Assembly (NCBI GenBank): GCA_021774795.1
Contig: JAJFIR010000044.1
Coordinates: 50,560-114,559 of the forward strand
Source: Emcibacteraceae bacterium
Lineage (GTDB): Bacteria > Pseudomonadota > Alphaproteobacteria > Sphingomonadales > Emcibacteraceae
Reading direction: 5' to 3'
DNA: 64,000 bases
The position numbers and the translations under genes were made by a program. Below the pieces are notes generated by a model. That model saw nothing but the letters and a program-made list of their open reading frames with translations. It made no database searches and was not told the origin of the DNA. Positions 42,140 through 57,185 of the stretch are shown piece after piece (within the stretch, counting starts at the first letter, position 1; every line of letters starts with the position of its first letter).

Positions 42140-43242
42140 TGGGATTTAAGTGTGGTATTGTTGGGCTTCCAAATGTCGGAAAATCAACCCTTTTCAATGC
42201 GTTAACCAACACGGCACAAGCGGCAGCGGCAAATTATCCCTTTTGCACCATTGAACCAAATGTCGGGCAAGTCCCCGTCCCTGACCCACGCCTTAACAAA
42301 TTGGCTGTAATTGCAGGATCCAAGGAAACCATTCCAACGCAATTGTCTTTTGTTGATATCGCTGGATTGGTTCGCGGTGCTTCAAAAGGAGAAGGTTTGG
42401 GTAATCAGTTTCTCGGTAATATACGCGAAGTTGACGCCATTATCCATGTATTGCGCTGCTTCGAAAACGATGACATCACACATGTCGAAGGTATTATAGA
42501 CCCGATCGCTGATGCTGAAACCGTCGAAACAGAACTGATGCTATCGGATATGGAAAGTCTGGGCAAAAGAAAAGCCGGTCTTGAACGCCGCATTCGTGGT
42601 CAGGATAAAGAGGCCAAAGTTATTATGGAAATGCTAGATCGCTGTCTTTCTATGCTGGAGGATGGCCAACCTGCTCGTAAAGTCAAAGCAGCCGATGCAG
42701 AGGAACAAGTTCTCATTGACGGATTGCAGCTTATCACAACAAAGCCTGTTCTTTACGTGTGTAATGTCAATGAAGACGATACCGTGGACGGAAACGAGTT
42801 TACGAAAAAAGTAGCGGCTAAAGCAGCAGCCGAGGGTGCCGTTACCGTGAACATATGCGCATCACTAGAAGAAGAAATCGCGCAACTTGATGATCCGGAA
42901 GAGCAAAAAGAATTTCTTGCTGATCTTGGTCTTGGAGAAACTGGTCTCGGGCGGGTTATTCGGGCGGGATATGACCTTCTTCATCTTATAACCTATTTCA
43001 CCGTTGGCCCAAAAGAAGCCCGCGCCTGGACCATTACACGAAAAACCAAAGCCCCACAAGCGGCCGGCGTCATTCATACGGACTTTGAACAGGGGTTTAT
43101 TCGCGCTGAAACAACATCTTACGACGATTATGCAGAATTTAACGGCGAAGCAGGCGTAAAGGATGCCGGTAAAATGCGACTGGAAGGTAAGGAATATATT
43201 GTCGCTGACGGTGACGTAATGCATTTTAGGTTCGCTAATTAG
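42139..43242 (+). CDS. ychF: Redox-regulated ATPase YchF (Obg family)
   Basis: 367 residues. P-loop GLPNVGKSTLFNALT, G3 region VDIAGLVRGASKGEGLG and the altered G4 motif NVNEDD in place of NKxD, which makes YchF prefer ATP. C-terminal TGS domain (YFTVGPKEARAWTI and HTDFEQGFIRAE). It binds ribosomes and is linked to stress responses. It is convergent with the CsgG-family gene, 28 bases away. Confidence 0.97.
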   Translation: MGFKCGIVGLPNVGKSTLFNALTNTAQAAAANYPFCTIEPNVGQVPVPDPRLNKLAVIAGSKETIPTQLSFVDIAGLVRGASKGEGLGNQFLGNIREVDAIIHVLRCFENDDITHVEGIIDPIADAETVETELMLSDMESLGKRKAGLERRIRGQDKEAKVIMEMLDRCLSMLEDGQPARKVKAADAEEQVLIDGLQLITTKPVLYVCNVNEDDTVDGNEFTKKVAAKAAAEGAVTVNICASLEEEIAQLDDPEEQKEFLADLGLGETGLGRVIRAGYDLLHLITYFTVGPKEARAWTITRKTKAPQAAGVIHTDFEQGFIRAETTSYDDYAEFNGEAGVKDAGKMRLEGKEYIVADGDVMHFRFAN

Positions 43243-43270
43243 CAAACCTGAAATCTATAACTCTGTTAAA

Positions 43271-44302
43271 TTAGCGTGATACTTTCACAACCATATCACC
43301 GCGCACCGGCAATATGGGATCAATCGCCGCATAATCACCATATGATAAACGTTGTTCAACACCCGTGAGTGTTACTACACCCAGTTCTTTCTTACGAACA
43401 CTGAGAAGTTCGCCGGTTACCGGGTCCGTTAAACGTTTAACAACACGCTCTACAACAAACTTATCACCAGATTTGAGCCCGGCATTTTCACCAAAGTTAA
43501 TGTAAACTTCACCGGCATCATATTCGACGACAGAACTTGACCAGTCAACATCGCTTGATTGTCTGGCTATCTTCTGCACCGCTTTGGTAATCGCTTTGCG
43601 TGATGCTTGCCCAAGCGGGGTTTTATAGAATTGGTTCGTACCCAAGTTTATACCTTTATATCCTGCATTCACATCAAATGATCTGCTTTTGGCTGTTTCT
43701 TTTACGGTAAAGCTATCAATTATTTCTCCGCTAGATGTATCAACAAGACGAATATCAAAGGCCACCGTACCGCTTTTACCCTGCAAAGACGCACCGCCAC
43801 CAAGCAAACTACCAAGTGCTCCGCTAGCAACCCCTAAATTAAGGCCACCACCTTTGCTTCCAGTGCTAAATTCCGTAACAGCGCCGTAAATAATAATCTG
43901 AGCATTTTGTAGGTTTCCGGATTGTGGTCTCCCTTCTTGCCTTGTTAGCCCGCCTGCTGCCAATTCCTGTTCGGCAAGTACCTGCTGCAAGTTAGCACGC
44001 TCAACCACGATAAACCTGTCTGCTTCGCGAAGTGCTGTTACAAACATAGATGAAAGCCCTCCACCAATCGACCAGTCACCATAGCTGGCAGCGAACGAGC
44101 CAATTGAATCAAACTTTCCAACCGCGACCGTTCTTTTTGGACCACGTACTTTCGGAATTTTACCATCCAGAATGCCTTCTTCAGCGGCGGCGACGCTTTC
44201 ATCTTGCGCATTTGCACTTAACGGTATCCCTATTACAAACGCAATCAAAACCAAATAACGGGCAAGAGAACTGCACATTCTTTCTATATTTTTATATTTC
44301 AT
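43271..44302 (-). CDS. CsgG/HfaB-family secretion-pore-like protein lacking a lipobox
   Basis: About 343 residues from ATG at 44302, chosen for the GGGAG site eight bases upstream; an ATG at 44326 overlaps the preceding stop. The signal peptide (YLVLIAFVIGIPLSANAQ) ends without the Cys that lipidates true CsgG/HfaB. Residues ~50-230 are CsgG-like: TVAVGKFDSIG, SSMFVTALREADRFIVVERANLQQVLAEQEL, QIIIYGAVTEFSTGS, then a Gly-rich loop and VAFDIRLVDTSSGEIIDS. The C-terminal ~90 residues (VYINFGENAGLKSGDKFVVER) recall the FlgT C-terminal domain. CsgG homologues form outer-membrane export pores. Last gene of the operon with the giant protein. Confidence 0.88.
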   Translation of the reverse strand: MKYKNIERMCSSLARYLVLIAFVIGIPLSANAQDESVAAAEEGILDGKIPKVRGPKRTVAVGKFDSIGSFAASYGDWSIGGGLSSMFVTALREADRFIVVERANLQQVLAEQELAAGGLTRQEGRPQSGNLQNAQIIIYGAVTEFSTGSKGGGLNLGVASGALGSLLGGGASLQGKSGTVAFDIRLVDTSSGEIIDSFTVKETAKSRSFDVNAGYKGINLGTNQFYKTPLGQASRKAITKAVQKIARQSSDVDWSSSVVEYDAGEVYINFGENAGLKSGDKFVVERVVKRLTDPVTGELLSVRKKELGVVTLTGVEQRLSYGDYAAIDPILPVRGDMVVKVSR

Positions 44303-44322
44303 CAACTTCGCTCCCACTTTCA

Positions 44323-44892
44323 TCAACGTACTGGTGACCAGACGCCATTAGATTTATTTACCAAATATTCGTCCACCACAGCACCATTTTCTGTGACAAT
44401 ATTTGCCCGTATATTATCGCCTTCATCTTTAATCGGCCCTACTTTGAGCCTCGGATTACCGGAAACCATCAATCTGTATTCAAGAAGTACAGCCACCGAC
44501 TTTTCCGTCGGCCCATCGGGGCCATAAGTTCCTTCTTTTGCGCCACTTGCCACCGGTAAATCAAGACCAGGTGCGCTTCCTTCCTGCATTTTCTTGGCTG
44601 CTGCCTCTGCTGCTACCGCTTGTAATTGCGCAGCGAGCATTTGAATTTGGTGAGTAAGTCCCACATAATCAATTTGGCTTCCCCTACCCGTTTGATACGG
44701 GATAAAAGGATAATCCAGATTTGATTGAGCATTTAATTTCGCCCGCTCGCGATAAAAATCTGCACGCTCAAAATTCCGTTCCTGAATATCTTGCGGCTGT
44801 CTGTTTTGCTGGGCGCTCGCCTGCAACGACATAACGCCAACCAAAGCAATCAAACCCATCGCAAGTACTAGTCTTAATTTATGTTCTATCAA
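44323..44892 (-). CDS. Small exported protein between the giant protein and CsgG-like genes
   Basis: 189 residues from the TTG at 44890-44892, which has an AAGGAGAG ribosome site six bases upstream; a TTG seven codons earlier (44913) would bury that site in the coding part. Signal peptide 1-27 (LVLAMGLIALVGVMSLQASAQ). The mature N-terminus is Gln/Arg-rich; a helical middle is Ala-rich (MLAAQLQAVAAEAAAKK). The C-terminal ~55 residues (VLLEYRLMVSGNPRLKVG, DNIRANIVTENGAVVDEYLVNKSNGVWSPVR) look like a small beta domain. No family recognised. Its place suggests an accessory or assembly factor for the giant protein. Confidence 0.8.
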   Translation of the reverse strand: MIEHKLRLVLAMGLIALVGVMSLQASAQQNRQPQDIQERNFERADFYRERAKLNAQSNLDYPFIPYQTGRGSQIDYVGLTHQIQMLAAQLQAVAAEAAAKKMQEGSAPGLDLPVASGAKEGTYGPDGPTEKSVAVLLEYRLMVSGNPRLKVGPIKDEGDNIRANIVTENGAVVDEYLVNKSNGVWSPVR

Positions 44893-44931
44893 CGAACTCT
44901 CCTTAAATTTCAAACACAGTATAAATAAATA

Positions 44932-47900
44932 TTATCCACCCCCGGCCACATTACCCAATCCGGCAATATTGTCATTCGCGGCACGTGCTGCATTTGCCCT
45001 GTTCGCAGCGCGAACACCGTCCTGAGTAAAGCCAAGTGTTGGATTAAACGGTATTTTATCAAGTGGAACCCCAATTTTCTCCACATCAAGTAAGCCGCCA
45101 TAACGCTCCATGACTCTTTGTCCGTGTCCGGTAGTAATATTGAACATCTCTTCACTTGCTGCATTAGCCCCTCTTCTGGCCCTTGCCGCACCAGCAGCAT
45201 CTCCGATCGCATTCGCTTCCGCTTCCGCAACACGAAATCTTTGTGCTGCGGCTGATGCATTTCTAAATGACGTAACCAACGCCTCATCCGGTGTTAGCAA
45301 TGCCCGTTGAATTAACTTGGCATTGGCGGCTCGCTCGGCTGGTGAACGGCCTATTGTGGGAAGTACGCCACCATTATCATGAACCATTGTTCTTTTGATA
45401 CCGTTGGCCAAATCCTCAAACCCGAAGTTGTTACCCTTAATATCAAACATCACCAATCCACCTTCATTTGTGAACTGTTGTGCACGGCTAAAGGACCTGA
45501 CTTCCGATGGTGACATCGGCGTTTGCCATCCTTTTGCATCGGCATATGTTGGAACAGGTGCTCTTTCTGTGACACGTAAACTTTTACCCGCCAAATCACC
45601 CGCTTCATCAGCAATTCTCGCCGCATCAGCAATATTGTCATTGGCCGCGATCACTTTGAATTCTCCGAAAACTTCAGGGGTATAGATGATGTTATCCTGC
45701 ACCCACTTCGGCAAAGCGCGCAACCCATCTGTACCAACTTTGTCCAATCTCGCAGCAATATTGGAGAGCTCCGTTGCTTCTGCGGCCGGTAAACCGACGC
45801 TAGTCAAATCCTTAGCTTCTTTAAGAACACGGCCTTGATTGGCACCTCTTAACGAAGATACTTCTGTGAACGACCCAGCACCCAATACTTCGCCCTTGGC
45901 CAATGAAAAGCTCGAACCGTCCTGTAAATGCACAACTATCACATCACCATATTGTTTTGCAGCAACAATTGGCGCGGGATTATCCGGTATTTGAACACGT
46001 GGCACGTTAGCCGCTTCGCCGGCCTGTCCGGCAGCAAGTGGTGGGTTACTGTCTGGAATTGCATTAGCAATAGGTTGGCGTCCTCTCGGCGCGTTGGTTG
46101 GCGGGATCCCGCTTCCACTAGCGGGGGATGCACCATCCCTGAAGGACGGCGGGATATCACCCCTGCCGCCCCCTGGCGGAAGTCCATTCCCTGGGGCAGG
46201 ACCATCACGGAATGTTCCCGTTGGTCCCCTTCCCGCAGGAACAGGCCCATCACGGAAAGTGCCTGTCGGCCCCCTGTCAGCAATGAGCGGTGGATTACTA
46301 TCCGGTATGGCGTTAGCAACCTGTTGATTTCCCCTTGGTGCGTTGGTAGGCGGAATACCGTCTCTTATAGTTGGCGGGATTCCATCCCTTATGGTAGGAG
46401 GAATGCCGTTCGGACCGTTGGCTGCAAGCGGCGCGGTTCCACCGGGGCCATTCCTCGTAACAGGTAAAGTTCCTCCCGGGCCGTCTCTTGGAATAGGCAA
46501 TGTACCACCCGGTCCGTCACGCGGAATGGGTAACGTATCTCCTGGTCCGGTACGTCCCGCACTTAACGGTTCATCAAGCGCGTTTCTGAATTCCGGGCCT
46601 AATAATTCGTCCAAACCCTGATAAGGCCCATCGGCTAAACCTGATGGTGCAGATGGGGATCTCGGCGTCGGGCCAGCGGGAAGAGGTGCTCTGGGTGGCG
46701 GATAAACAGGTGAACGCGGTGCTGTGCCAAATGCATTAGAAAACTCTGGCCCCAACAATTCGTCCAGGCCCTGATAAGGTAACGGGCCATTACGTGGCGC
46801 ACCGGGGGCATCATTAAACGCATTTCTGAACTCAGGACCCAGCAATTCATCTAATCCCTGGAACGGTCCATCTGGTGCAGGTGCCGGCCTTAAAGGCGGC
46901 CCGCCCGTTGGCGTACCGCGTAGGGGCACTGGGCGAACCGGCGGATAAACCGGCGGTCTCGGCGCAGAACCAAATGCATTTGCAAATTCTGGCCCGAGCA
47001 ATTCATCTAATCCTTGATACGGTGCCGGCCCGTCTCGCGGCGTAAGCGGCACATCATCAAACGCATTTCTAAATTCTGGCCCCAATAATTCATCTAAACC
47101 CTGGTAAGGGCCGTCCCTCGGGGGTAGCGGTGTTCTTGGCGCGTTCCCACCGGCGCGAAGTGGTGTTGGCCGCGCTGGCGGCAACACCGGCGCTCTTGGT
47201 GTTGTGCCAAACGCATTTGCAAATTCCGGACCCAATAACTCATCGAGTCCCCGATATGCGCCACTGGCTTCTCCTGCGTGGGCTCTGTCGGCAAATCTCA
47301 CACTATCGCCTACAACTTCGCCGGTACGGGCAGCATCCTGTGCGGCATTACCAGATCTGGTAAAATCCCCGGCGGCATCAAGTCCGCGCGCCACATCATC
47401 GAGAACACTTCCAGCATGAGCGATGTCATCAACCTTATCGACCGCGCGTAGTACTGTTGCTATTTTCGTAACGCCCATAGCCGCTAACGTAGGATCAACG
47501 AATAATTCCGCGCCAACCGTCGTTACGTCCGCAGCACCAGAAAACCCGTCAGTGGCCGATCCTGTGGCGTAGGCATTTTCGATTCTATCCAGACCTTCCG
47601 ATATTATCTTGCCTTGACTGACAGCGAACTTCACGCCCAAGTCAATTAATGCACCGGGCTCGCCATCGGCTGCTGAGTTGATAAAGTCCAAATTATCGGA
47701 ACCAAATACATCGATTTCAGTGCCAGTGAGGTCTTCGGCGGTTGATTCCAGAATTTCATAATATAAATCCAGAGGTTCAACAATAAATACGTCAACCATA
47801 CCGACCACACCTTTGACGATACCTTTACCGGTTCCGTACAAACCACCACCGACAACGCCAAAACTAACACCAATATCCGAAACCGCCTTCGCTGTTGCGT

Positions 47901-50900
47901 CGTAGCCGTTAATCATCGACATATAAGGATCAAATGCAGGCTCTTTGAAATCAAGACCGTTTACCGCAGCCTGGATACTTGTTGTCTGATCCGGTTGTGG
48001 TGGTAACCCAAGCATCGCCCCCATGATCGTTGTTGATATCCTTGTAACGTTGGCACGTGCCTCCAACTGATCATCAAAACCAATTTCACCGAGCCCATTC
48101 ATAGTTCCAAAATGGGTTACTTCCCTGCGAACATCATCTGCAAATGTTTGTGTAACCCTTATGGTGCTTTGGTCTTGTTCACCCCAAAATTTGCGGGCCT
48201 CGGTCAGTTTTGTTAATTCCCCGCGCGCCGCTTCTGCATCTTCCGCGCTTGTCGGGTTATTGATACGGTTTCGAATGGCTGTTTCACGCGTATCAAATGC
48301 CGATGTGCGCGCTGCTGCCATATTTCTTGCAGTATCCACTCTTTCTAGTGCCGTAACATACGTATTGACCTGTTTTTGAACTTCTTCGGCCCGTGCCCCA
48401 TCGTCAGCCGCCCACAGTTTCCGATTAGCTTCCTGCCACGTCTCATACCTTAATGTTTCTTCCGTTCTTCGTGCCCGTTGATCAGAACGCAGTCTCGCTA
48501 CACCGGTTTCCAAACCTTCTTTGAGCGTTTTATGCTCGGCTTCTTCTTCATCATTCCAAAACGTCATGTCGTCAAGTTCTTTGATGCGCGCCTGAACCCG
48601 ACCTAAATCACGCCCCCTACTTTCTAGCATTTCAGGTGTAGAGCGCTGACCTTGGGCACTTTCATTAAATTCAGTGTAACGGGCATTTTGATCGATAAAG
48701 TCTTTTCTGGCTTCGCCAAGCTCTAAACGTTCAAGAAAATCAATGCGCTGTGCAGTATTTAGTGTATCCCACTGTGGAATATTTTTATTTAGCCAATCTG
48801 ATCTTTCGTCTGAATCCAGTGCCGACCAACGCCAACCTTCCGGTGGATTTTTCATTAACTCGTTAAATGCGTTGGTTTGAAGGCGCGCCATTTCAGTCGA
48901 CGTTGCAGTCGCTCGTTCAGTTAGGCGATCTGCTTCTTCGGTGAGCCTCAATACTTCTGCATCTAGTCTTGCAGCTTCTTTTCTTGCATTTTCTGCATCC
49001 GTCTCTGCGGTGTCTGCATCCTCTCTTAATTTATCCGCATCACTCTTGACTTCTTGACCTCTGGTCGCAAGTCGTTCCGCGCGTTCATCATCGCTGGTCG
49101 CATCTGATCTGATCTGATCTGCTTCCGCATCTCTCGCGGCAGCGTCGCTTCTATTATTATCGGCCGCTGTTTGAGCATCTCTTGCCAATGATCTATCATC
49201 CGTATTGTCAGCAAGCCTTTGATTTCTTTGCGCCGAAGCCCGTAACCTGTCTGCTTGGGCTTCAAGATCAGCTGCCCGGTCTTTCTGGTCGTCGGCTTGT
49301 CCCGCCGCAGATTCAGCAAGCTCCACATATTCGTCGGCCTGACGTTCTCTTGTACCAGCATTATCATCGGACAAATTCCTCCTGAATTCTGCTTCCTGTT
49401 CGGCCGTTTTAACACCGTACTTCGCCTCTTCAGCGTCTCTGGCGACACTTCGCGCCTCATTAAATTTTCGTCGCGCCGCTTCCTTGGCGGCCGCTGTCGC
49501 TTCTGCTAGTTGCTCAACAGTCGGTGGTGGTGCTGAATTTCGAGCAACGGTCCCTGCGGTGGCTTGCTGGCGTAGTTCAACAATCCTTTGCTCTTGCATT
49601 TGAAGCGGGCCAATAAAACCGCCGGGTGGGTCGATTGGTGGTGAATAATTTTCCACCATTCTAACTTCCACAATTTCCCGCACGACTGTACCGCCGCCGT
49701 TAATGGGCCTTGGGGCCGACCTTACTTCTACAATTTCCTGTTCACCCGCCCCGCTGCCAATCGGTCTAGGGGACGATCTTCCCTCTACAATTTCCCTCAC
49801 GACGGTTCCATCACCATTATTCCCTGTGCTCACATTGGGTGGTGGTGGCGGGCCAAATACCACATCTGAAGCAGGATCGGGAACAGTCCCTGCCCGTGCA
49901 CTGGCAAGTTGGGCGCGCGCTGTCGCAGCATCCGCTTCAAATCTACTGACACCTTCGGCGGCGGCAGACCAAGCCGCAGAAGCACCAATATTTTCTACAT
50001 CCAGTGCAAATTCACCGTCTGGGCTAACCATTATATTGATGTCCCTGAGCTCAAATTGATTGCTTAGGCTGCCAAGGTTTTGTTGCATATCATTATAATT
50101 TAACTGCGCTTGTTGCACGCGTGCCGGATTTCCCGATGCTTCCGCCTGCTCCAGCTCGCTTCTCGCTTGCTGAAGGTTATTATTGGCCTGGACAAAGTCC
50201 ATCTGCAACTGCGCCACTTCCGCTACCTGCTCACGGAAGGCGATCCGATCAATATTACCCTGGCCATCTGTTGGAAAGCCATCCATTAATCCGTCTGACC
50301 ATTCATTGTGGGCGTTAACACGGTCAAAGGCACTGTCTGCTGCGGCAAGTGGTGCCATTTTACCCAATTCACCATCAAGCCTGTTAAGCTCACTTTGCAT
50401 ATCTCGGTACGCTTGATCAGCACCAAAAACAATACCGGTTCCATTTCCACCCGGATCAAAATTATTGATCCGTTCTTGAAGGTCCTGACGCTGCGCTGTC
50501 AGTTCATTAAACCGGGTCGTAAGCGGGCCACCGGGATCCTGGACGTTCCCATCCAGACCACCCCTCGCCGCGGCGACACGCTGCTTCGCCTCACCAAGCA
50601 TATCAATTTCCGTTTGCAATTCGGTGTCAGTCAATCTGCTTAGGCGCTGACGTTCGGCAAAATCACTGGATATTGTTCTAAGCTTGTCCGTGAGCACCCG
50701 ACTGGTTGCGTTTGTCGCGGACATCGGTGTGCCGGTTAATTCCTCCGTGGTAGTGCCGATATCAGTTCTAAATCCATCCCTGGCCCTTGTGGCATCGTTA
50801 AGTTGTTTATTCAGGTCCGCGAGGTCTTCCTGCAAAGATTCCAGGCTGTCTCGATCAAAATCGTCATCCTGACTTGCAGCATCGAACGCGTCCTGAGTTG

Positions 50901-53778
50901 CGTTTCTTCGTTCAGAAATATCTTTTACGTCACGTTCAGCATTCAAAAAGCCGTTAAACGCATTTGAGGCTTCACGGGCATTTTCGTATTCCCTCCACTC
51001 TTCCTGCATTCCTGCGTCGTAGAACTGAGCTTGTAACACCAATTTATCTGCTGTTGACGCACCGCGAGCGGCAGCGTCGGCCTGATTTTGTGCGCGTTCG
51101 ATCGCACGGTCATATGCTCTATCCTGTCGTGAGCCAGAGCCACCCTGACGACGAAGGTTTAGCTGTTCTTCACGAAGCCGGTCTGCCTCACTTTGCGCGT
51201 TTCTCGCGCGTTCGTGAGCATCCGCTTGCATGTTCTTCGCTTCATAGACGGGGTCACCTTGCCATAACGCATCAATTTCCGCCTGTTTGATTCTAAACTC
51301 ACGCATGGCACCTGAGAAATTACTTTGATCACGCTGTAGCATGCCTTCCTGACGTGCCAGATCCGTTGTTGCCCTTGAATTTGCTTGGCGTTCTGCTCTT
51401 ATCCTTTGGCATTCAGGACCACGGCAATTTGGATCGCCGTTACGCCGTGCTCTCTGTTCCTCGCGTCTAAGATCACCTTCTTCACGTTCCAGTCTTTCAC
51501 GTAATTCTTTTTGTCTCTCGCTTTCTTCCTCTATACGGTCAGCTTCTTCCTGGATTTTATCGGCTCTCTCTCTTTGTTCTTCTTCAAGTTTGTCTCTTGC
51601 TTTTTCTCTATCAGTGCGGTTGTCGCGTTCTTCTTGCTCTTCGCCAGCTTTCTTTTCGCCTTCGTCAATATCCTCATCAAGTCCATCAAGTTCTTCTTCA
51701 GCTTCTTTTCGCGCTTTTTCCCTCGCTTTTCTTAACTCTTCTTCAATCAAATCAGCCGCGCGGTCCGCAGCTTCATCACACGCGTTAGCGAGTATTGGTG
51801 GACAGGGTACCGGACCATCTCCATTTATAACATTTCCAAGGTCATCGGATACGCTGGCTACCGTGTTTGATAAACTGGCTATTTGCGCCGAAAGATTACC
51901 GCCATTATTTCCCGCGCGAATTCGCATATTTTGATTGTATATGCTCATTCTTTCCGGATCTGCGATATCGCCGGAATTATTGTCCAACTGGCTGCTCAAA
52001 CCATTGTTCATACCAGAGGATATGCCCGGACTTTCATCTTCAAGCAATTGCATCGCTCTATTTTGTGCGCCGACCCGCAACTCTGATGCTTCTTCCGTGC
52101 GTCTTATGTCTTCTTGGCGTCTGATACGTGCTTCTTCGGCCGCCCTCGCCGCAGCCAGCTCTCGTTCCGCTTGTGACGGCCCTGATGCGGCGGGACTTAC
52201 TTCATTTGCAACCACAGCCGGTGATGAACTGTCCGTCACTTCGGTCTCCGTACTTTCGCTAGAAGTTTCAGGAGGACTTCCTTCTGTCGCTGCCGTTTTC
52301 GAGGCATCCGCGGCGGCACTGTCATCCACACTTGCTGTTTCGACCTCTGCATCATCCGTAACAACGTCAAGGCTACTACCTTCGTTGACCGCAGTTTTAG
52401 ACGCGTCAGAATCACTTATACTGCTTCCTTCACCCACGCCGCCGTCTGAAACAGGTATACCTGTATTACCAACAGCAATAGTTGGTCCAGTACCGGAAGA
52501 ACCCGCAAATGCAGGGGTTGCTACGCCCAGTGGACCCTGTCTACCTTGGGCTGAGCCAACCGCCGTTGGTGTAATCGACCGACAGTCAGGACCCTGACAG
52601 GCACTCTGCTGTATTTCCAACTCAACGTTTATGGATGGCTCCTGTTCTGACAGATTATATTCATGCTGGAAATCCGTGATTTGTGTCGAACCATCACCCA
52701 ATTCAAACGTAGTGGTTGATGCACCGTTGTCTGAACCAACAGAAACCGGGGTAGAAACCAATGGAGCTGACGCGCCTTTCGTTGGAACAGGCGTTGCTAC
52801 GATGGTACTTGGCGATGTACCCACTTGAAAAACAGGTGTACTGGGCGCAGCAAATCCTCCGGTTCCATTATTTTCTATTCCAACTCTGCTTTGGCTGGTT
52901 CCCGCCTGGGTAGCTTGGGTCGCAAGTCCACCACCCGAACCTCCAACTTCTGTATAAACCACAGGTGATTCTATCGTACCTTCAACCAATGTAGTTGTTG
53001 TGGTTTCTGTTATAATCGTTTCGCTGTCGGCGGTTCTTATGGTCGTAACTTCGGTATCAACAGTCTCCGTTGGTGTTGATGTAATCTTTGTTCCGTCACT
53101 TTGCAATTCTACATTCGTCGCGCCAACAGTTGTTTGACTATCGCTCGTCGTGGTCGTGACACCACCCGCTGTAGGCGCGGTTTGCAAGTTATTAAAAGTC
53201 GGTGTATTTTGCGCCACCGAAAAATTTGGTGAATGCGCACCGATAGCCACGCCGGATTGATATTTGGTCGGTTGTTGCGTAATTGTATAATTAAATTGCC
53301 CGGCATTCGTTCCATTACCTTTACTGCCGATGGTGTATCCATTTTCCGATGGTGTCACGTCGAGCCGCATCCAGCCAGTCGGTGTGGGATCGCTTATCCC
53401 TACCGTTCTAATTTCACCCGTATTGGGATTGGCTACAACTTCACTGCTTTCTGAAAGTTGAGACATCAAACCTTGGTTGATTTGAATTTTGCTAACGAGA
53501 TTCTGATAATTATTTAAAGAGGATTGTTGCTGAACATTGTTATTAGACGTAGAAGTGGTCGTTCCTTTACCACCATAATAAGATGGAACAGCCAATGTTT
53601 CTTGTGACCATGACGGTCCAGAGGATAATAGAAGTGCGACACACATCATCGCATAAACACAGAGTTGCAGCGCGCATTTCTTTAGAATGCTAATCGAAGA
53701 ATTATGCTTTTTCGTGGGCTTTGCCAAATCTAATGTTATTTTATTATTTTCAGTGTACCCGTTTCCCCGTTGTCTCAT
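44932..53778 (-). CDS. Giant exported multi-domain protein with kinase-like C-terminus
   Basis: 2,948 residues from ATG at 53776-53778, chosen for the GGGGAG site eight bases upstream (a TTG at 53814 would add 12). Signal peptide with a long N-region (hydrophobic CALQLCVYAMMCVALLLSSG, ending near SWSQ). Then: low-complexity Ser/Thr/Asn region (~60-530); long Glu/Arg/Ala coiled coils (~530-1950); a Gly-rich region resembling pre-toxin segments (~1960-2150); six (Y/F)xGLDELLGPEFxNA repeats (2175-2401); Pro/Gly linker (~2405-2600); and a protein-kinase-like domain (LGAGSFTEV at 2632-2640, K2653, DIKGNN at 2779-2784, HDNGG with D2801). Six Cys in the mature part, in three close pairs. No family recognised overall. 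It appears more GC-rich than its neighbours by eye. Probably surface-located or secreted. Confidence 0.9.
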   Translation of the reverse strand: MRQRGNGYTENNKITLDLAKPTKKHNSSISILKKCALQLCVYAMMCVALLLSSGPSWSQETLAVPSYYGGKGTTTSTSNNNVQQQSSLNNYQNLVSKIQINQGLMSQLSESSEVVANPNTGEIRTVGISDPTPTGWMRLDVTPSENGYTIGSKGNGTNAGQFNYTITQQPTKYQSGVAIGAHSPNFSVAQNTPTFNNLQTAPTAGGVTTTTSDSQTTVGATNVELQSDGTKITSTPTETVDTEVTTIRTADSETIITETTTTTLVEGTIESPVVYTEVGGSGGGLATQATQAGTSQSRVGIENNGTGGFAAPSTPVFQVGTSPSTIVATPVPTKGASAPLVSTPVSVGSDNGASTTTFELGDGSTQITDFQHEYNLSEQEPSINVELEIQQSACQGPDCRSITPTAVGSAQGRQGPLGVATPAFAGSSGTGPTIAVGNTGIPVSDGGVGEGSSISDSDASKTAVNEGSSLDVVTDDAEVETASVDDSAAADASKTAATEGSPPETSSESTETEVTDSSSPAVVANEVSPAASGPSQAERELAAARAAEEARIRRQEDIRRTEEASELRVGAQNRAMQLLEDESPGISSGMNNGLSSQLDNNSGDIADPERMSIYNQNMRIRAGNNGGNLSAQIASLSNTVASVSDDLGNVINGDGPVPCPPILANACDEAADRAADLIEEELRKAREKARKEAEEELDGLDEDIDEGEKKAGEEQEERDNRTDREKARDKLEEEQRERADKIQEEADRIEEESERQKELRERLEREEGDLRREEQRARRNGDPNCRGPECQRIRAERQANSRATTDLARQEGMLQRDQSNFSGAMREFRIKQAEIDALWQGDPVYEAKNMQADAHERARNAQSEADRLREEQLNLRRQGGSGSRQDRAYDRAIERAQNQADAAARGASTADKLVLQAQFYDAGMQEEWREYENAREASNAFNGFLNAERDVKDISERRNATQDAFDAASQDDDFDRDSLESLQEDLADLNKQLNDATRARDGFRTDIGTTTEELTGTPMSATNATSRVLTDKLRTISSDFAERQRLSRLTDTELQTEIDMLGEAKQRVAAARGGLDGNVQDPGGPLTTRFNELTAQRQDLQERINNFDPGGNGTGIVFGADQAYRDMQSELNRLDGELGKMAPLAAADSAFDRVNAHNEWSDGLMDGFPTDGQGNIDRIAFREQVAEVAQLQMDFVQANNNLQQARSELEQAEASGNPARVQQAQLNYNDMQQNLGSLSNQFELRDINIMVSPDGEFALDVENIGASAAWSAAAEGVSRFEADAATARAQLASARAGTVPDPASDVVFGPPPPPNVSTGNNGDGTVVREIVEGRSSPRPIGSGAGEQEIVEVRSAPRPINGGGTVVREIVEVRMVENYSPPIDPPGGFIGPLQMQEQRIVELRQQATAGTVARNSAPPPTVEQLAEATAAAKEAARRKFNEARSVARDAEEAKYGVKTAEQEAEFRRNLSDDNAGTRERQADEYVELAESAAGQADDQKDRAADLEAQADRLRASAQRNQRLADNTDDRSLARDAQTAADNNRSDAAARDAEADQIRSDATSDDERAERLATRGQEVKSDADKLREDADTAETDAENARKEAARLDAEVLRLTEEADRLTERATATSTEMARLQTNAFNELMKNPPEGWRWSALDSDERSDWLNKNIPQWDTLNTAQRIDFLERLELGEARKDFIDQNARYTEFNESAQGQRSTPEMLESRGRDLGRVQARIKELDDMTFWNDEEEAEHKTLKEGLETGVARLRSDQRARRTEETLRYETWQEANRKLWAADDGARAEEVQKQVNTYVTALERVDTARNMAAARTSAFDTRETAIRNRINNPTSAEDAEAARGELTKLTEARKFWGEQDQSTIRVTQTFADDVRREVTHFGTMNGLGEIGFDDQLEARANVTRISTTIMGAMLGLPPQPDQTTSIQAAVNGLDFKEPAFDPYMSMINGYDATAKAVSDIGVSFGVVGGGLYGTGKGIVKGVVGMVDVFIVEPLDLYYEILESTAEDLTGTEIDVFGSDNLDFINSAADGEPGALIDLGVKFAVSQGKIISEGLDRIENAYATGSATDGFSGAADVTTVGAELFVDPTLAAMGVTKIATVLRAVDKVDDIAHAGSVLDDVARGLDAAGDFTRSGNAAQDAARTGEVVGDSVRFADRAHAGEASGAYRGLDELLGPEFANAFGTTPRAPVLPPARPTPLRAGGNAPRTPLPPRDGPYQGLDELLGPEFRNAFDDVPLTPRDGPAPYQGLDELLGPEFANAFGSAPRPPVYPPVRPVPLRGTPTGGPPLRPAPAPDGPFQGLDELLGPEFRNAFNDAPGAPRNGPLPYQGLDELLGPEFSNAFGTAPRSPVYPPPRAPLPAGPTPRSPSAPSGLADGPYQGLDELLGPEFRNALDEPLSAGRTGPGDTLPIPRDGPGGTLPIPRDGPGGTLPVTRNGPGGTAPLAANGPNGIPPTIRDGIPPTIRDGIPPTNAPRGNQQVANAIPDSNPPLIADRGPTGTFRDGPVPAGRGPTGTFRDGPAPGNGLPPGGGRGDIPPSFRDGASPASGSGIPPTNAPRGRQPIANAIPDSNPPLAAGQAGEAANVPRVQIPDNPAPIVAAKQYGDVIVVHLQDGSSFSLAKGEVLGAGSFTEVSSLRGANQGRVLKEAKDLTSVGLPAAEATELSNIAARLDKVGTDGLRALPKWVQDNIIYTPEVFGEFKVIAANDNIADAARIADEAGDLAGKSLRVTERAPVPTYADAKGWQTPMSPSEVRSFSRAQQFTNEGGLVMFDIKGNNFGFEDLANGIKRTMVHDNGGVLPTIGRSPAERAANAKLIQRALLTPDEALVTSFRNASAAAQRFRVAEAEANAIGDAAGAARARRGANAASEEMFNITTGHGQRVMERYGGLLDVEKIGVPLDKIPFNPTLGFTQDGVRAANRANAARAANDNIAGLGNVAGGG
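46040..46560 (-). repeat. Pro/Gly-rich linker built from short tandem and dispersed duplications
   Basis: Within the giant gene: GPGGTLPIPRD-type units in four tandem copies (about 46425-46560), GIPPTIRD in tandem (about 46335-46400), GPTGTFRDGP twice (about 46190-46290), and a longer block IPPTNAPRG...ANAIPDSNPPL twice (about 46040-46110 and 46290-46360). Recent unequal crossing-over or slippage is likely. Confidence 0.8.
46576..47256 (-). repeat. Six copies of a 16-residue coding repeat, alternating long and short spacers
   Basis: Inside the giant gene, copies of (Y/F)xGLDELLGPEFxNA(F/L) lie at 47209-47256, 47059-47106, 46972-47019, 46816-46863, 46729-46776 and 46576-46623. Start-to-start distances are 150, 87, 156, 87 and 153 bases, so the true unit is a pair of about 240 bases repeated three times. 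Odd copies read EFANAFG or EFSNAFG then a Pro-rich stretch, and even copies EFRNAF/L with a short linker. Confidence 0.95.
49655..49810 (-). repeat. Triplicated EIVExR segment in the giant gene
   Basis: Three copies of a unit around VVREIVEGRSSPRPI, QEIVEVRSAPRPI and VVREIVEVR, between the two large coiled-coil blocks (residues about 1325-1375). It is preceded by a FGPPPPPN hinge. It looks like a hinge or docking segment. Confidence 0.8.
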
Positions 53779-53828
53779 ATCGCCTGCTCCCCGCAACTGA
53801 TCTATTGAAATCAACTTCTCTATTTTTT

Positions 53829-53859
53829 AACTGTGTTTCACGATAGTGTCAGCACAGTT
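53829..53859. promoter_or_regulatory. Inverted repeat upstream of the giant-gene operon
   Basis: AACTGTG (53829-53835) and CACAGTT (53853-53859) with 17 bases between, 50 bases before the giant gene's start. It may be an operator or a leader hairpin. No clear sigma-70 promoter was assigned on this strand. Confidence 0.35.
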
Positions 53860-53972
53860 TATCTGCACCTATATATAATGTGATCTTAAAGTCACCGAAT
53901 TGTATACCAAATAGGGGTCAGAGTCGAATCCTCTTCAGCAATTTTCAGACGAGCAATCTCTGTTGAGCCACG

Positions 53973-54000
53973 TTGACAGTTTACCTAACTTCGTTAATAT
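53973..54000 (+). promoter_or_regulatory. Candidate sigma-70 promoter for the KefB-type gene
   Basis: TTGACA at 53973-53978 and TAATAT at 53995-54000 with a 16-base spacer, 49 bases before the ATG at 54049. A near-consensus promoter. Confidence 0.5.
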
Positions 54001-54048
54001 CTCATTATGCTCATCTAAAGAGTGATTATAAAAAAGGGAAAATTTGCA

Positions 54049-55893
54049 ATGGGCGGATTTTTATTTCAGGCATTTGTGTATTTAACGGCGGCCGTTATCG
54101 CCGTTCCAATTGCAAAACGGTTCGGACACGGGTCGGTCCTCGGTTATTTAATCGCTGGCATTATCATTGGTCCGATTATCGGGCTGGTTGGTACCGAAAC
54201 ACAAGACCTACAGCATTTTGCCGAATTTGGCGTTGTCATGATGTTGTTTTTGGTAGGATTAGAAGTTGAACCCCGATTGCTTTGGGAAATGCGCTCCAAA
54301 TTGTTGGGGTTAGGTGGTTTGCAAGTCGGCCTGACAACGGCAATCATATCGGCTGCTGCATTGTTTTTTGGCCTCGCATGGCAGACCTCTCTTGCTATTG
54401 GGTTGATAGGGTCGTTGTCATCAACCGCGATCGCACTGCAAACTTTAAACGAAAAAGGCCTTATTAAATCGGAAGGCGGTCAAGGTAGTTTTTCAATATT
54501 ATTATTCCAGGATATCGCCGTTATTCCTATGCTTGCGCTTATTCCACTTCTGTCAATAGCCGAATTTATGTCACCGTCCGGTGCGGATGCCGTTGAAACG
54601 TCACATAACTTGTTAACGGATTTGCCAAATTGGGCCGCCGCACTTGCAACCCTTGGCGCGATAGCCGCTGTTATTTTTGGCGGTCACTTTTTAGCTAGGC
54701 CTCTTTTCAGGTTTATTGCAGAGTCTCGCTTACGCGAAATATTTACTGCGGCGGCACTTTTTTTCGTAATCGCAATCGCTTTGCTTATGGAACTGGTTGG
54801 GCTGTCGCCTGCGCTCGGCACGTTTTTAGCGGGTGTTGTGCTGGCCAACAACGAATATAAGCATGAACTGGAAAGCGATATTGCACCTTTCAAAGGATTA
54901 TTATTAGGGCTATTTTTTATCACCGTCGGGGCCAGCATTAACCTTGATTTACTGGTTGATGAATTTAATATGATAATCAGCATTACCGCTGCCATATTAA
55001 TTGCAAAATTGGTAATTCTATATTCTATAGCGCGTATTATGAAAATTCCTGCGGCGGGTTGTTGGCTTATCGCACTTGGTCTTTCGCAGGTCGGCGAATT
55101 TGGCTTTGTATTGATTAATTTCAGCATGCAAAACAATGCCATCAATATGGTGCTCGCCAACATATTTTCATTAGTGGTCGCCTTATCAATGCTTGTAACA
55201 CCGTTTCTGTTTATTTTGTATGATAAATTGATCGCCGGACGTCCTGCAAACACTGATGGTCGTGCGGCAGATGACATTGATGATGCGGGATGTGTTATCG
55301 TCGCCGGACATGGACGGTTCGGACAAGTGGTCAACAGGATGCTGATATCGTCGGGATATAAAACCGTTGTCCTTGATCATAAAAGCTCACTGGTTGACGG
55401 CATGCGGCAATTTGGTGTCAGCACATATTATGGTGATGCGTCACGTCCGGATTTACTGCATTCAGCTGGCTTAAAAGAAGCCAACGCGATCGTCATTGCA
55501 ATCGACGATCAAGACCGCGCAATAGAAATGGTACATTTCGTGCGAAGAGAACGTCCCGATATCCATATCGTAGCCCGGGCCGTTGACCGTCACCATGTTT
55601 ATGAACTTTATCAAGCCGGTGCCAACGATATCGTACGTGAAACATTTGATTCAGCCGTCCGCGCAGGAAAATATACACTAGAAGCCATAAGCGGCAATGC
55701 GAAGAAAGCAGAAGAAATATCAACCTTGTTTGTTGCACATGACAGAAAAGTTCTTGTGAAATTAGCACAGGTTTATGACCCAAAGATCGAAGTTTACAAA
55801 AATGATGAATATAAAAAAGTGGCGACTGAACATAACGAACTTTTGAGAGATGCCATTAACGCAATGGGTAGCCAGGCAAAGGAAAACGAATAA
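54049..55893 (+). CDS. KefB/CPA2-type K+/H+ antiporter with RCK domain
   Basis: 614 residues from ATG 54049; an upstream GTG (54022) would add nine. Twelve to thirteen membrane helices (~1-385) in the CPA2 pattern, starting FLFQAFVYLTAAVIAVPIAKRFGHGSVLGYL. The core has SLSSTAIALQTL and FQDIAVIPMLALIPLL; the second is the ion-site region. The RCK/TrkA-N domain (~410-530) has the NAD-binding AGHGRFGQVVNRML and ends FDSAVRAGKYTLEAI. It effluxes K+ (or exchanges it for H+), as in glutathione-regulated systems; no KefF/KefG partner is seen. Confidence 0.93.
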   Translation: MGGFLFQAFVYLTAAVIAVPIAKRFGHGSVLGYLIAGIIIGPIIGLVGTETQDLQHFAEFGVVMMLFLVGLEVEPRLLWEMRSKLLGLGGLQVGLTTAIISAAALFFGLAWQTSLAIGLIGSLSSTAIALQTLNEKGLIKSEGGQGSFSILLFQDIAVIPMLALIPLLSIAEFMSPSGADAVETSHNLLTDLPNWAAALATLGAIAAVIFGGHFLARPLFRFIAESRLREIFTAAALFFVIAIALLMELVGLSPALGTFLAGVVLANNEYKHELESDIAPFKGLLLGLFFITVGASINLDLLVDEFNMIISITAAILIAKLVILYSIARIMKIPAAGCWLIALGLSQVGEFGFVLINFSMQNNAINMVLANIFSLVVALSMLVTPFLFILYDKLIAGRPANTDGRAADDIDDAGCVIVAGHGRFGQVVNRMLISSGYKTVVLDHKSSLVDGMRQFGVSTYYGDASRPDLLHSAGLKEANAIVIAIDDQDRAIEMVHFVRRERPDIHIVARAVDRHHVYELYQAGANDIVRETFDSAVRAGKYTLEAISGNAKKAEEISTLFVAHDRKVLVKLAQVYDPKIEVYKNDEYKKVATEHNELLRDAINAMGSQAKENE

Positions 55894-55897
55894 TCCG

Positions 55898-56647
55898 TTA
55901 TTTATCCACCCGACCTGCTATTAACGTCAACGGCCACGATATGCTTTTTAAAGGTGCGACGCCCCATGCTTTTGCAAATTTGTCGTGCCATAAATATACG
56001 GGGTCATAGTCATTATTCTGAATGTAACGGGTGGTTGCCGACCATGTTCTTAAGTATCCTAAAAACTCATCTAATGACCAGTTGACCTCTATATTAAAGT
56101 CAGGACAGTTAATCTTATCAAAGGGAAAGGCCAAATCCTGATATCCATTTTCAATATGTATTCTTTCCTTGGGCCAATAATCACCAGCAACGTTTTCGTA
56201 AAACTCCATAAATAGCGGATCAACATTTTCGTCAATGGCCATCAAACCATAACACCACACGGCGAGCAAACCATTTGGTTTTAAAACGCGTCCGACTTCA
56301 CCGTAAAATTTATCAAGATCAAACCAGTGCAACGCTTGTGCGACAGTGATAAGATCAACGGCATCGCCCATTAATCCGGAATTTGCTGCATCCGCCGTTT
56401 TGAAATAAATATTATCCGGGCCATCAGCAGACCTGATTTGTGCAGCGCTTGCGTCGGTAGCATGAACTTTTTTAAACAGTTTTGAAAGCCCCCGTGCCGC
56501 TTGCCCGTTCCCTGTTGCACAGTCCCAAACAAGATCATTTTTATCGCACACATTTGCTAGATACGTATATAACTCTTGCGGATATTCGGGGCGGTATCGA
56601 CTATATGCATTACTTTGAATTGAGAAATAATCTTTAAAATCCGCCAT
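55898..56647 (-). CDS. Class I SAM-dependent methyltransferase
   Basis: 249 residues from ATG 56647 (MADFKDYFSIQS); an ATG at 56668 would overlap apt. The SAM motif VWDCATGNGQAARGLSKLF, the aspartate ATDAS, and the post-motif DLITVAQALHWFDLDKFYGEVGRVLKPNGLLAVWCYG are clear. The family's SNAYSRYRPEYPQELY start is typical of small-molecule methyltransferases. Substrate unknown. Third gene after mtnP and apt, so perhaps linked to methyl or purine recycling (inference). Confidence 0.9.
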   Translation of the reverse strand: MADFKDYFSIQSNAYSRYRPEYPQELYTYLANVCDKNDLVWDCATGNGQAARGLSKLFKKVHATDASAAQIRSADGPDNIYFKTADAANSGLMGDAVDLITVAQALHWFDLDKFYGEVGRVLKPNGLLAVWCYGLMAIDENVDPLFMEFYENVAGDYWPKERIHIENGYQDLAFPFDKINCPDFNIEVNWSLDEFLGYLRTWSATTRYIQNNDYDPVYLWHDKFAKAWGVAPLKSISWPLTLIAGRVDK

Positions 56648-56654
56648 TAGAAGA

Positions 56655-57185
56655 TCACAGCTCTTCATATGTCGCTAGCGTGAATATATTACATTCTTTT
56701 GCCTGCAACGCTGAACAACCGCCAAGTTCCGGCAGGTCAATTATAAAACAAGCATCAGTGACGCTTCCGCCCGCTTTTTCGATTAACTTTAAAGCGGCAA
56801 CTGCCGTACCTCCCGTTGCGATAAGATCATCGACCAATAATATATTATCGCCCTCGTTCAGCGCATCCTTATGAATTTCTAATGCATCTTCACCATATTC
56901 AAGTAAATAACGCTCATTATGGGTTTCGCGCGGTAATTTTCCTTCTTTTCTTATGGTGATAAAGCCAACACCCAAAATATGGGCAATGGCACCACCTAAT
57001 ATGAAACCACGAGCTTCAATTCCCGCTACTTTATCAATACCGTTATCTTTATACCTGTCCGCAAATTCTGTAATCATTTTTGGAAAAGCCACATCATTTT
57101 CAAATATGGTGGTCACGTCGCGAAACATAATGCCGGGCTTGGGATAATCAGGTATGGTTCTCACATATTCCTTAATCCAGGACAT
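56655..57185 (-). CDS. apt: Adenine phosphoribosyltransferase Apt
   Basis: 176 residues. PRPP-binding motif ILLVDDLIATGGTAVAAL, with GIEARGFILGGAIAH and RDVTTIFEN upstream. It salvages adenine to AMP. Its start overlaps the mtnP stop (TAATG); together they recycle the adenine freed from methylthioadenosine. The mtnP-apt pair after petABC is common in alphaproteobacteria. Confidence 0.97.
   Translation of the reverse strand: MSWIKEYVRTIPDYPKPGIMFRDVTTIFENDVAFPKMITEFADRYKDNGIDKVAGIEARGFILGGAIAHILGVGFITIRKEGKLPRETHNERYLLEYGEDALEIHKDALNEGDNILLVDDLIATGGTAVAALKLIEKAGGSVTDACFIIDLPELGGCSALQAKECNIFTLATYEEL

Follow-up and report, generated by a model that had tools for sequence, protein, structure and literature searches.

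A conserved alphaproteobacterial CsgG-giant unit encoding a very large, putatively exported protein with a predicted kinase-fold end

What kind of protein is encoded by an open reading frame of about 8.8 kb in an alphaproteobacterial genome, and does it belong to a system? The frame in question (44932..53778, minus strand), whose product is called the giant here, lies in a stretch of 64,000 nucleotides from Emcibacteraceae bacterium (assembly GCA_021774795.1, contig JAJFIR010000044.1, positions 50,560 to 114,559), which is the whole of the DNA analysed and is referred to as the window. The initial observation holds and extends further than first described: judged by computational comparison, the giant belongs to a conserved unit of Alphaproteobacteria, in which a CsgG-family gene accompanies a giant protein with a predicted kinase-fold end.

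From its ATG the frame encodes 2,948 amino acids followed by a stop codon, while a TTG at 53814, as an alternative start, would lengthen the product by 12 residues (44932..53814, minus strand). A database search with the last 409 residues, in which only the 7,988 candidates with the most shared words were scored, returned at least 11 proteins, the window's own included; among the ten others eight have 2,826–3,025 residues, one has 2,608, and one is a piece of 1,790 residues. Two of these relatives are labelled Emcibacteraceae, and aligned over their length the relatives are 37–78% identical to the giant. Since at least ten further database proteins match its C-terminal region, the frame is judged from its sequence to be far beyond chance expectation. 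The initial annotation had described a single giant frame that belongs to no known whole-protein family; the former is borne out by collinear relatives, and the latter agrees with the absence of any Pfam or NCBIfam match, and of any PDB sequence match, at E ≤ 1.

The giant is not encoded alone. In the window it is followed on the same strand by a small gene, designated here as gene2, and by a CsgG-family gene, and these are its direct neighbours rather than ychF and kefB, as had been stated before. Gene2 begins 18 bases past the stop codon of the giant, its TTG start being uncertain. The CsgG-family protein matches PF03783 with 124.4 bits (cut-off 20.8; E 5e-36) and the solved E. coli CsgG with E 6e-8, and hhalign to E. 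coli CsgG gives 97.6% over 143 columns in an alignment confined to residues 63–214; this protein is the sole match in its own genome at E ≤ 0.001. Its C-terminal extension is weakly FlgT_C-like (19.8 bits, below the cut-off of 27). Both this protein and the product of gene2 have, by eye, a signal-like start. The C-terminal domain of gene2 was also found in other small proteins (L092, L093, L095, and L098) with no CsgG gene in the stretch read, and it is therefore a separate module.

The distribution of the unit is patchy. The C-terminal region of the giant was matched in 4 of 13 genomes of the genus and in 4 of 32 genomes of the family (the window's own genome included), the remaining nine genus genomes being unmatched; a separate search with a gene2 profile marked the identical 4 of the 32, and in all four carriers of the genus the three genes stand together in the same order. 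Such patchy presence with conserved order, for which the initial annotation had called, supports a discrete system. When 385 genomes of the class were searched with the gene2 of the window, 15 matched; in five of them (the own genome, G032, G072, G199, and G288) the match extends well past the C-terminal domain, and in ten it stays within residues 107–195. G032, G072, G199, and G288 possess an alternative order (gene2, then the CsgG gene, then the giant), their CsgG genes being 49–52% identical to that of the window by local BLAST and their giants comprising at least 3,288 (running off the contig), 3,855, 4,032, and 3,555 amino acids, respectively. A family-level search around G199 matched 4 of 25 genomes, including two new ones (G419 and G430), and the locus read in G419 contains the unit with the giant in three frames. 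These frames (L090:3191-15245) stand beside open gene2 and CsgG frames and reflect either decay or sequencing error.

All nine full-length gene2 loci that were read, G430 being left out of this set, carry the unit, and they represent four families (f1, f3, f42, and f156) and two gene orders. No CsgG gene or giant was present in the fetched stretches, some shortened by contig ends, of seven of the ten class genomes with C-terminal-only matches and of one genome of the phylum sample. Across that sample of 398 genomes the gene2 profile gave a full-length match to the genome of the window, two partial matches, and none further. The profile of the kinase-like domain matched six of the 385 class genomes, namely the same five and, weakly, G226 (E 3e-5); it included sequences from those five genomes, which aided their recovery, and the window sequence alone recovered G032 and G288 with either query. 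The G032 giant is represented by two unjoined pieces (L080:2410-12276 and L081:2548-9324), the second contig end opening with 32 identical residues, and the complete protein may be longer than 5,000 amino acids; the first piece contains a Big_9 Ig domain (E 4.9e-9), and the second contains two kinase-like domains in tandem and a further C-terminal part.

The giants can be divided into two lineages that are mostly dissimilar over their length: lineage A (the window and its relatives, 2,608–3,025 residues) and lineage B (3,555–4,163 residues). Comparison of A with B by hhalign gave 99.9% for the C-terminal domain (E 5.5e-37, 262 columns) and 97.8% over 650 columns for the first coiled-coil block. 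For a control with reversed lineage B the highest value was 86.7% (12 columns), and within the charged block 70.5% was reached (95 columns); therefore the similarity of the first block may partly be one of composition. A DPNC-x4-C motif occurs in the first block of every listed giant of both lineages and in neither G032 piece, and a YATQAxQAxQA-like tract lies near residue 280 in some lineage A and near residues 60–80 in some lineage B proteins.

The C-terminal domain shared by the two lineages had been described as kinase-like, and this description is supported by a kinase fold in its predicted model and by the preserved catalytic motifs. Of the Foldseek matches obtained with the model at E ≤ 0.001, all 24 are kinases or kinase-holding complexes, and within the protein kinase superfamily the closest folds are those of PRPK/Bud32, PknB, YabT, and OspG. 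The domain of the window resembles this superfamily also in its glycine loop GAGSFT (2633–2638), D2779-K2781-N2784, and D2801-x-G-G. DxKxxN and DxGG are present in all ten aligned domains, those from giants of 3,555–4,032 residues among them, so that the catalytic Asp, Lys, and Asn and the metal-binding Asp of the DFG site are invariant. Unlike the superfamily, the domain terminates a signal-bearing giant and has no kinase family match at the sequence level; the N-lobe (VAIK) lysine is kept in five domains, that of the window (K2653) among them, and is arginine in the other five, while the HRD motif is absent from all ten and replaced by (W/I/V/M)-(L/F)-D. Among atypical kinases the HRD motif is common without being universal. 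The weakly matching G226 protein (L107:4512-7943) has 1,143 residues, a signal-like start, and the kinase-like motif LRDFKPDNFG, with no obvious CsgG-giant unit within the 14 kb read; exported kinase-like proteins may represent a wider theme.

Several known systems offer parallels to the unit. Like curli, where CsgG acts with CsgA/B, CsgE, and CsgF, it combines a CsgG-family protein with a cargo-type gene possessing a Sec-type start and with a small exported-looking accessory. Unlike curli, the putative cargo is a coiled-coil-like, kinase-ended giant of about 2,600–4,200 residues with no curlin-repeat match in Pfam (E ≤ 1), and gene2 is neither CsgE nor CsgF (0.2% and 0.15%, respectively, with the E. 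coli proteins in hhalign); many alphaproteobacterial curli systems also lack CsgE/CsgF (PMC3521004). CsgG is a lipoprotein (PMC7738311), whereas no lipid-attachment cysteine is conserved after the hydrophobic start of the window's CsgG-family protein and its relatives in an alignment inspected by eye. The Caulobacter holdfast anchor HfaA-HfaB-HfaD, in which HfaB is required for the arrival of HfaA and HfaD at the surface (PMC6707917), is likewise an alphaproteobacterial association of a CsgG-like protein with an adhesin-like partner. Against the NCBIfam HfaB model NF037935 the CsgG-family protein of the window scored 20.3 bits, below the cut-off of 300. Unlike the holdfast anchor, the giant ends in a kinase-like domain, and it is several times larger than HfaD.

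In contact-dependent inhibition (CDI), a form of two-partner secretion, the giant exoprotein CdiA has its own outer-membrane transporter CdiB, and the unit is similar in that a transporter-type gene for the outer membrane accompanies that of a putative giant exoprotein; it is different in having a CsgG-type transporter gene instead of an Omp85-type barrel, a constant C-terminal domain, and no conserved immunity-type neighbour seen. Neisseria MafA, likened to CsgG by the authors, exports the toxin MafB, and, compared by description only, the unit would share with this pair a predicted outer-membrane oligomer dedicated to one toxin-type cargo, while strains can make several MafB variants and the C-terminal domain of the giant is constant (PMC7738311). 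A lantibiotic-synthetase-type kinase toxin domain is known in PVC-linked polymorphic toxins (PMC3482391). No description of a CsgG-giant unit was found in the literature searched; as far as that literature extends, the parts of the unit are of known kinds and their combination is apparently new.

How could these proteins act together? CsgG-dependent export is proposed because the HfaB and MafA precedents fit, and the chances seem about evenly balanced that the CsgG-type pore exports the giant and presents a kinase-fold effector domain outside the cell, both export and activity being predictions. Sec would carry the giant into the periplasm, probably by means of its signal peptide, after which it would cross the outer membrane via the neighbouring CsgG-type pore, with gene2 possibly assisting either the giant or the pore as a chaperone or adaptor in the periplasm. 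The pore would pass an unfolded giant, whose external folding may pull the chain through, and the conserved cysteine pairs may form disulfides following export. The coiled-coil-like shaft would then present the kinase-fold effector domain at the surface, where it might modify proteins of a contacted cell. Because free adenosine triphosphate (ATP), which a kinase requires, is scarce outside bacteria, the domain would most plausibly act in a contacted cell. A non-sibling target, either bacterium or eukaryote, is favoured because the C-terminal domain is constant and no immunity-type neighbour is conserved. Taken in full, the proposal would be a new secretion-and-effector class, in which a CsgG-type pore and an accessory protein export a giant whose constant kinase-fold enzyme acts on proteins of the cells touched, that is, a stalk-borne weapon or signalling device of Alphaproteobacteria; it is put forward tentatively, the balance being somewhat against it. 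The cargoes for which CsgG-type pores are mainly known are small amyloid subunits and the holdfast anchor. If a pore of this class does export a kinase-ended protein of 2,600–4,200 residues, its size limit and driving force become testable, and bacteria acquire a means of presenting a kinase externally; such tests are feasible because the unit is compact and patchy.

Other explanations should be weighed against this export of an active enzyme. The long coiled-coil-like, Ser/Thr-rich, and repeat regions, together with a CsgG-family partner and the HfaB-HfaA-HfaD precedent, are what a surface adhesin or filament would be expected to have, that is, CsgG-dependent anchoring or a biofilm fibre like HfaD, with the kinase-like domain as a pseudokinase for binding or folding. 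The arginine in half of the domains and the missing HRD point in the same direction; however, lineages whose middles are unalignable keep the catalytic D, K, and N as well as the DxGG aspartate without exception, which weighs against a pseudokinase, because a purely structural one needs none of these residues, and the explanation is considered rather unlikely. It is very improbable that the giant is retained in the envelope, with the CsgG-family protein as a structural ring instead of a pore and the whole unit as an envelope scaffold: the FlgT_C-like extension and the lack of a conserved lipid-attachment cysteine would be in keeping with this, but the CsgG relatives in the available published text act in export, and there is little ATP in the periplasm for a kinase-like domain.

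A contact-dependent or polymorphic-toxin weapon against siblings, in which the CsgG-type pore replaces CdiB and the kinase-like domain is the toxin, is also improbable, although a giant exoprotein beside a pore-type gene, an enzyme-like C-terminus after a hydrophobic segment, the patchy distribution, and the precedents of MafA/MafB and of the PVC-linked kinase toxin (PMC3482391) speak for it. Exchange of the C-terminal domain, a trait of polymorphic toxins, was not seen at the nine loci found via gene2, a comparison from which the database relatives found by the domain itself were excluded; the same domain is present directly at eight of these loci and, at the ninth (G032), on the overlapping contig end. 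Besides, no further immunity-type gene is conserved beside the giant at eight loci inspected by eye, some with flanks cut by contig ends, and both partner proteins appear exported.

The order of segments listed for the giant in the initial annotation, from a signal-like start through to a kinase-like end, holds (Table 1), while its label of pre-toxin-like for the hydrophobic segment has no support in Pfam or NCBIfam. A hydropathy scan places a hydrophobic core at residues 39–52 and a cleavage-like site after residue 58, and such a site is found at residues 57–58 in 9 of 11 other distinct complete lineage A relatives; the exceptions are G026 (at 68) and P0011 (at 16), with uncertain start codons. 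Ser, Thr, and Asn constitute 37% of residues 59–330, whereas Asp, Glu, Lys, Arg, and Gln reach 57% at residues 661–880 and 47% at residues 1421–1640, the coiled-coil-like character of both blocks being judged from composition only. The first block contains conserved CxxxxxxxC (659, 667) and DPNCxxxxC (785, 790). The GLDELLGPEF repeats start at residues 2177, 2227, 2256, 2308, 2337, and 2388, and a tandem repeat is present in the DNA at 46475-46549.

Table 1. Features of the CsgG-giant unit in the window (aa, amino acid residues of the giant unless stated otherwise).
Feature	Position	Strand	Basis or remark
Giant, putatively exported protein	44932..53778	minus	open frame, 2,948 aa + stop from ATG; collinear relatives
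Signal-peptide-like start, aa 1-58	53605..53778	minus	simple hydropathy scan; cleavage-like site precedes QETLAVPSYYGG
Ser/Thr/Asn-rich low-complexity region, aa 59-540	52159..53604	minus	composition; conserved patch aa 76-150
First charged coiled-coil-like block, aa 541-1290	49909..52158	minus	composition, conservation, hhalign to lineage B
Variable Pro/Gly-rich linker, aa 1291-1420	49519..49908	minus	composition, conservation
Second Ala/charged coiled-coil-like block and strongly conserved segment, aa 1421-1950	47929..49518	minus	composition, conservation
Hydrophobic segment, aa 1951-2130	47389..47928	minus	composition; without family match
Six GLDELLGPEF repeats with Pro-rich spacers, aa 2176-2420	46519..47253	minus	sequence
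Pro/Gly-rich linker, aa 2421-2585	46024..46518	minus	composition
Kinase-like domain, about aa 2600-2915	45034..45981	minus	alignment, predicted fold, motifs
Gene2, exported-looking, up to 196 aa (own length)	44323..44913	minus	C-terminal helix-plus-three-strand domain
CsgG-family protein, 351 aa (own length)	43271..44326	minus	PF03783; overlaps gene2 end

As to the genomic site, an insertion into a conserved ychF-kefB neighbourhood had been suggested, and this is rejected because the sites of the unit differ, kefB is present in few congeners, and the contents of the interval differ. In the four carrier genomes of the genus the unit occupies four different sites, so that the other three carriers have it elsewhere, and no fetched flanking gene is common to the four, the only matches coming from duplicate loci of the same genome and some flanks being short. 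A close kefB copy was found in only 3 of 13 genus genomes, and the top NCBIfam score of the window's kefB is to KefC, below the cut-off. In the five congeners where it could be followed throughout (G020, G024, G026, G028, and G030) the stretch from ychF to apt or mtnP is without the unit and holds differing genes or none. Thus the earlier interpretation stands as regards a discrete patchy system and a kinase-like end and fails as regards the insertion; the two genes by which the system is defined, gene2 and that of the CsgG-family protein, had been overlooked. The corresponding interval of the window, from ychF to apt/mtnP (43242-57185), varies in contents among congeners as if it were a frequently changing site.

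The guanine-cytosine (GC) content of the giant at third codon positions is 0.406 against 0.36–0.415 in six neighbouring genes, and therefore gives no sign of recent foreign acquisition; its high overall GC (0.508) is owing to amino acid content. No relative was found in plasmid and phage records at E ≤ 1e-5, phages being searched with the kinase-like domain only. Movement of the unit between sites is inferred from its four different locations, although loss from lineages would give patchiness too. In G026 a serine recombinase at a contig end (L037:1-870; PF00239, E 3e-40; PF07508) adjoins the CsgG gene, and in G072 (L076 and L077) the genes downstream of the unit resemble, by eye, outer-membrane assembly factors of the TamA/TamB type.
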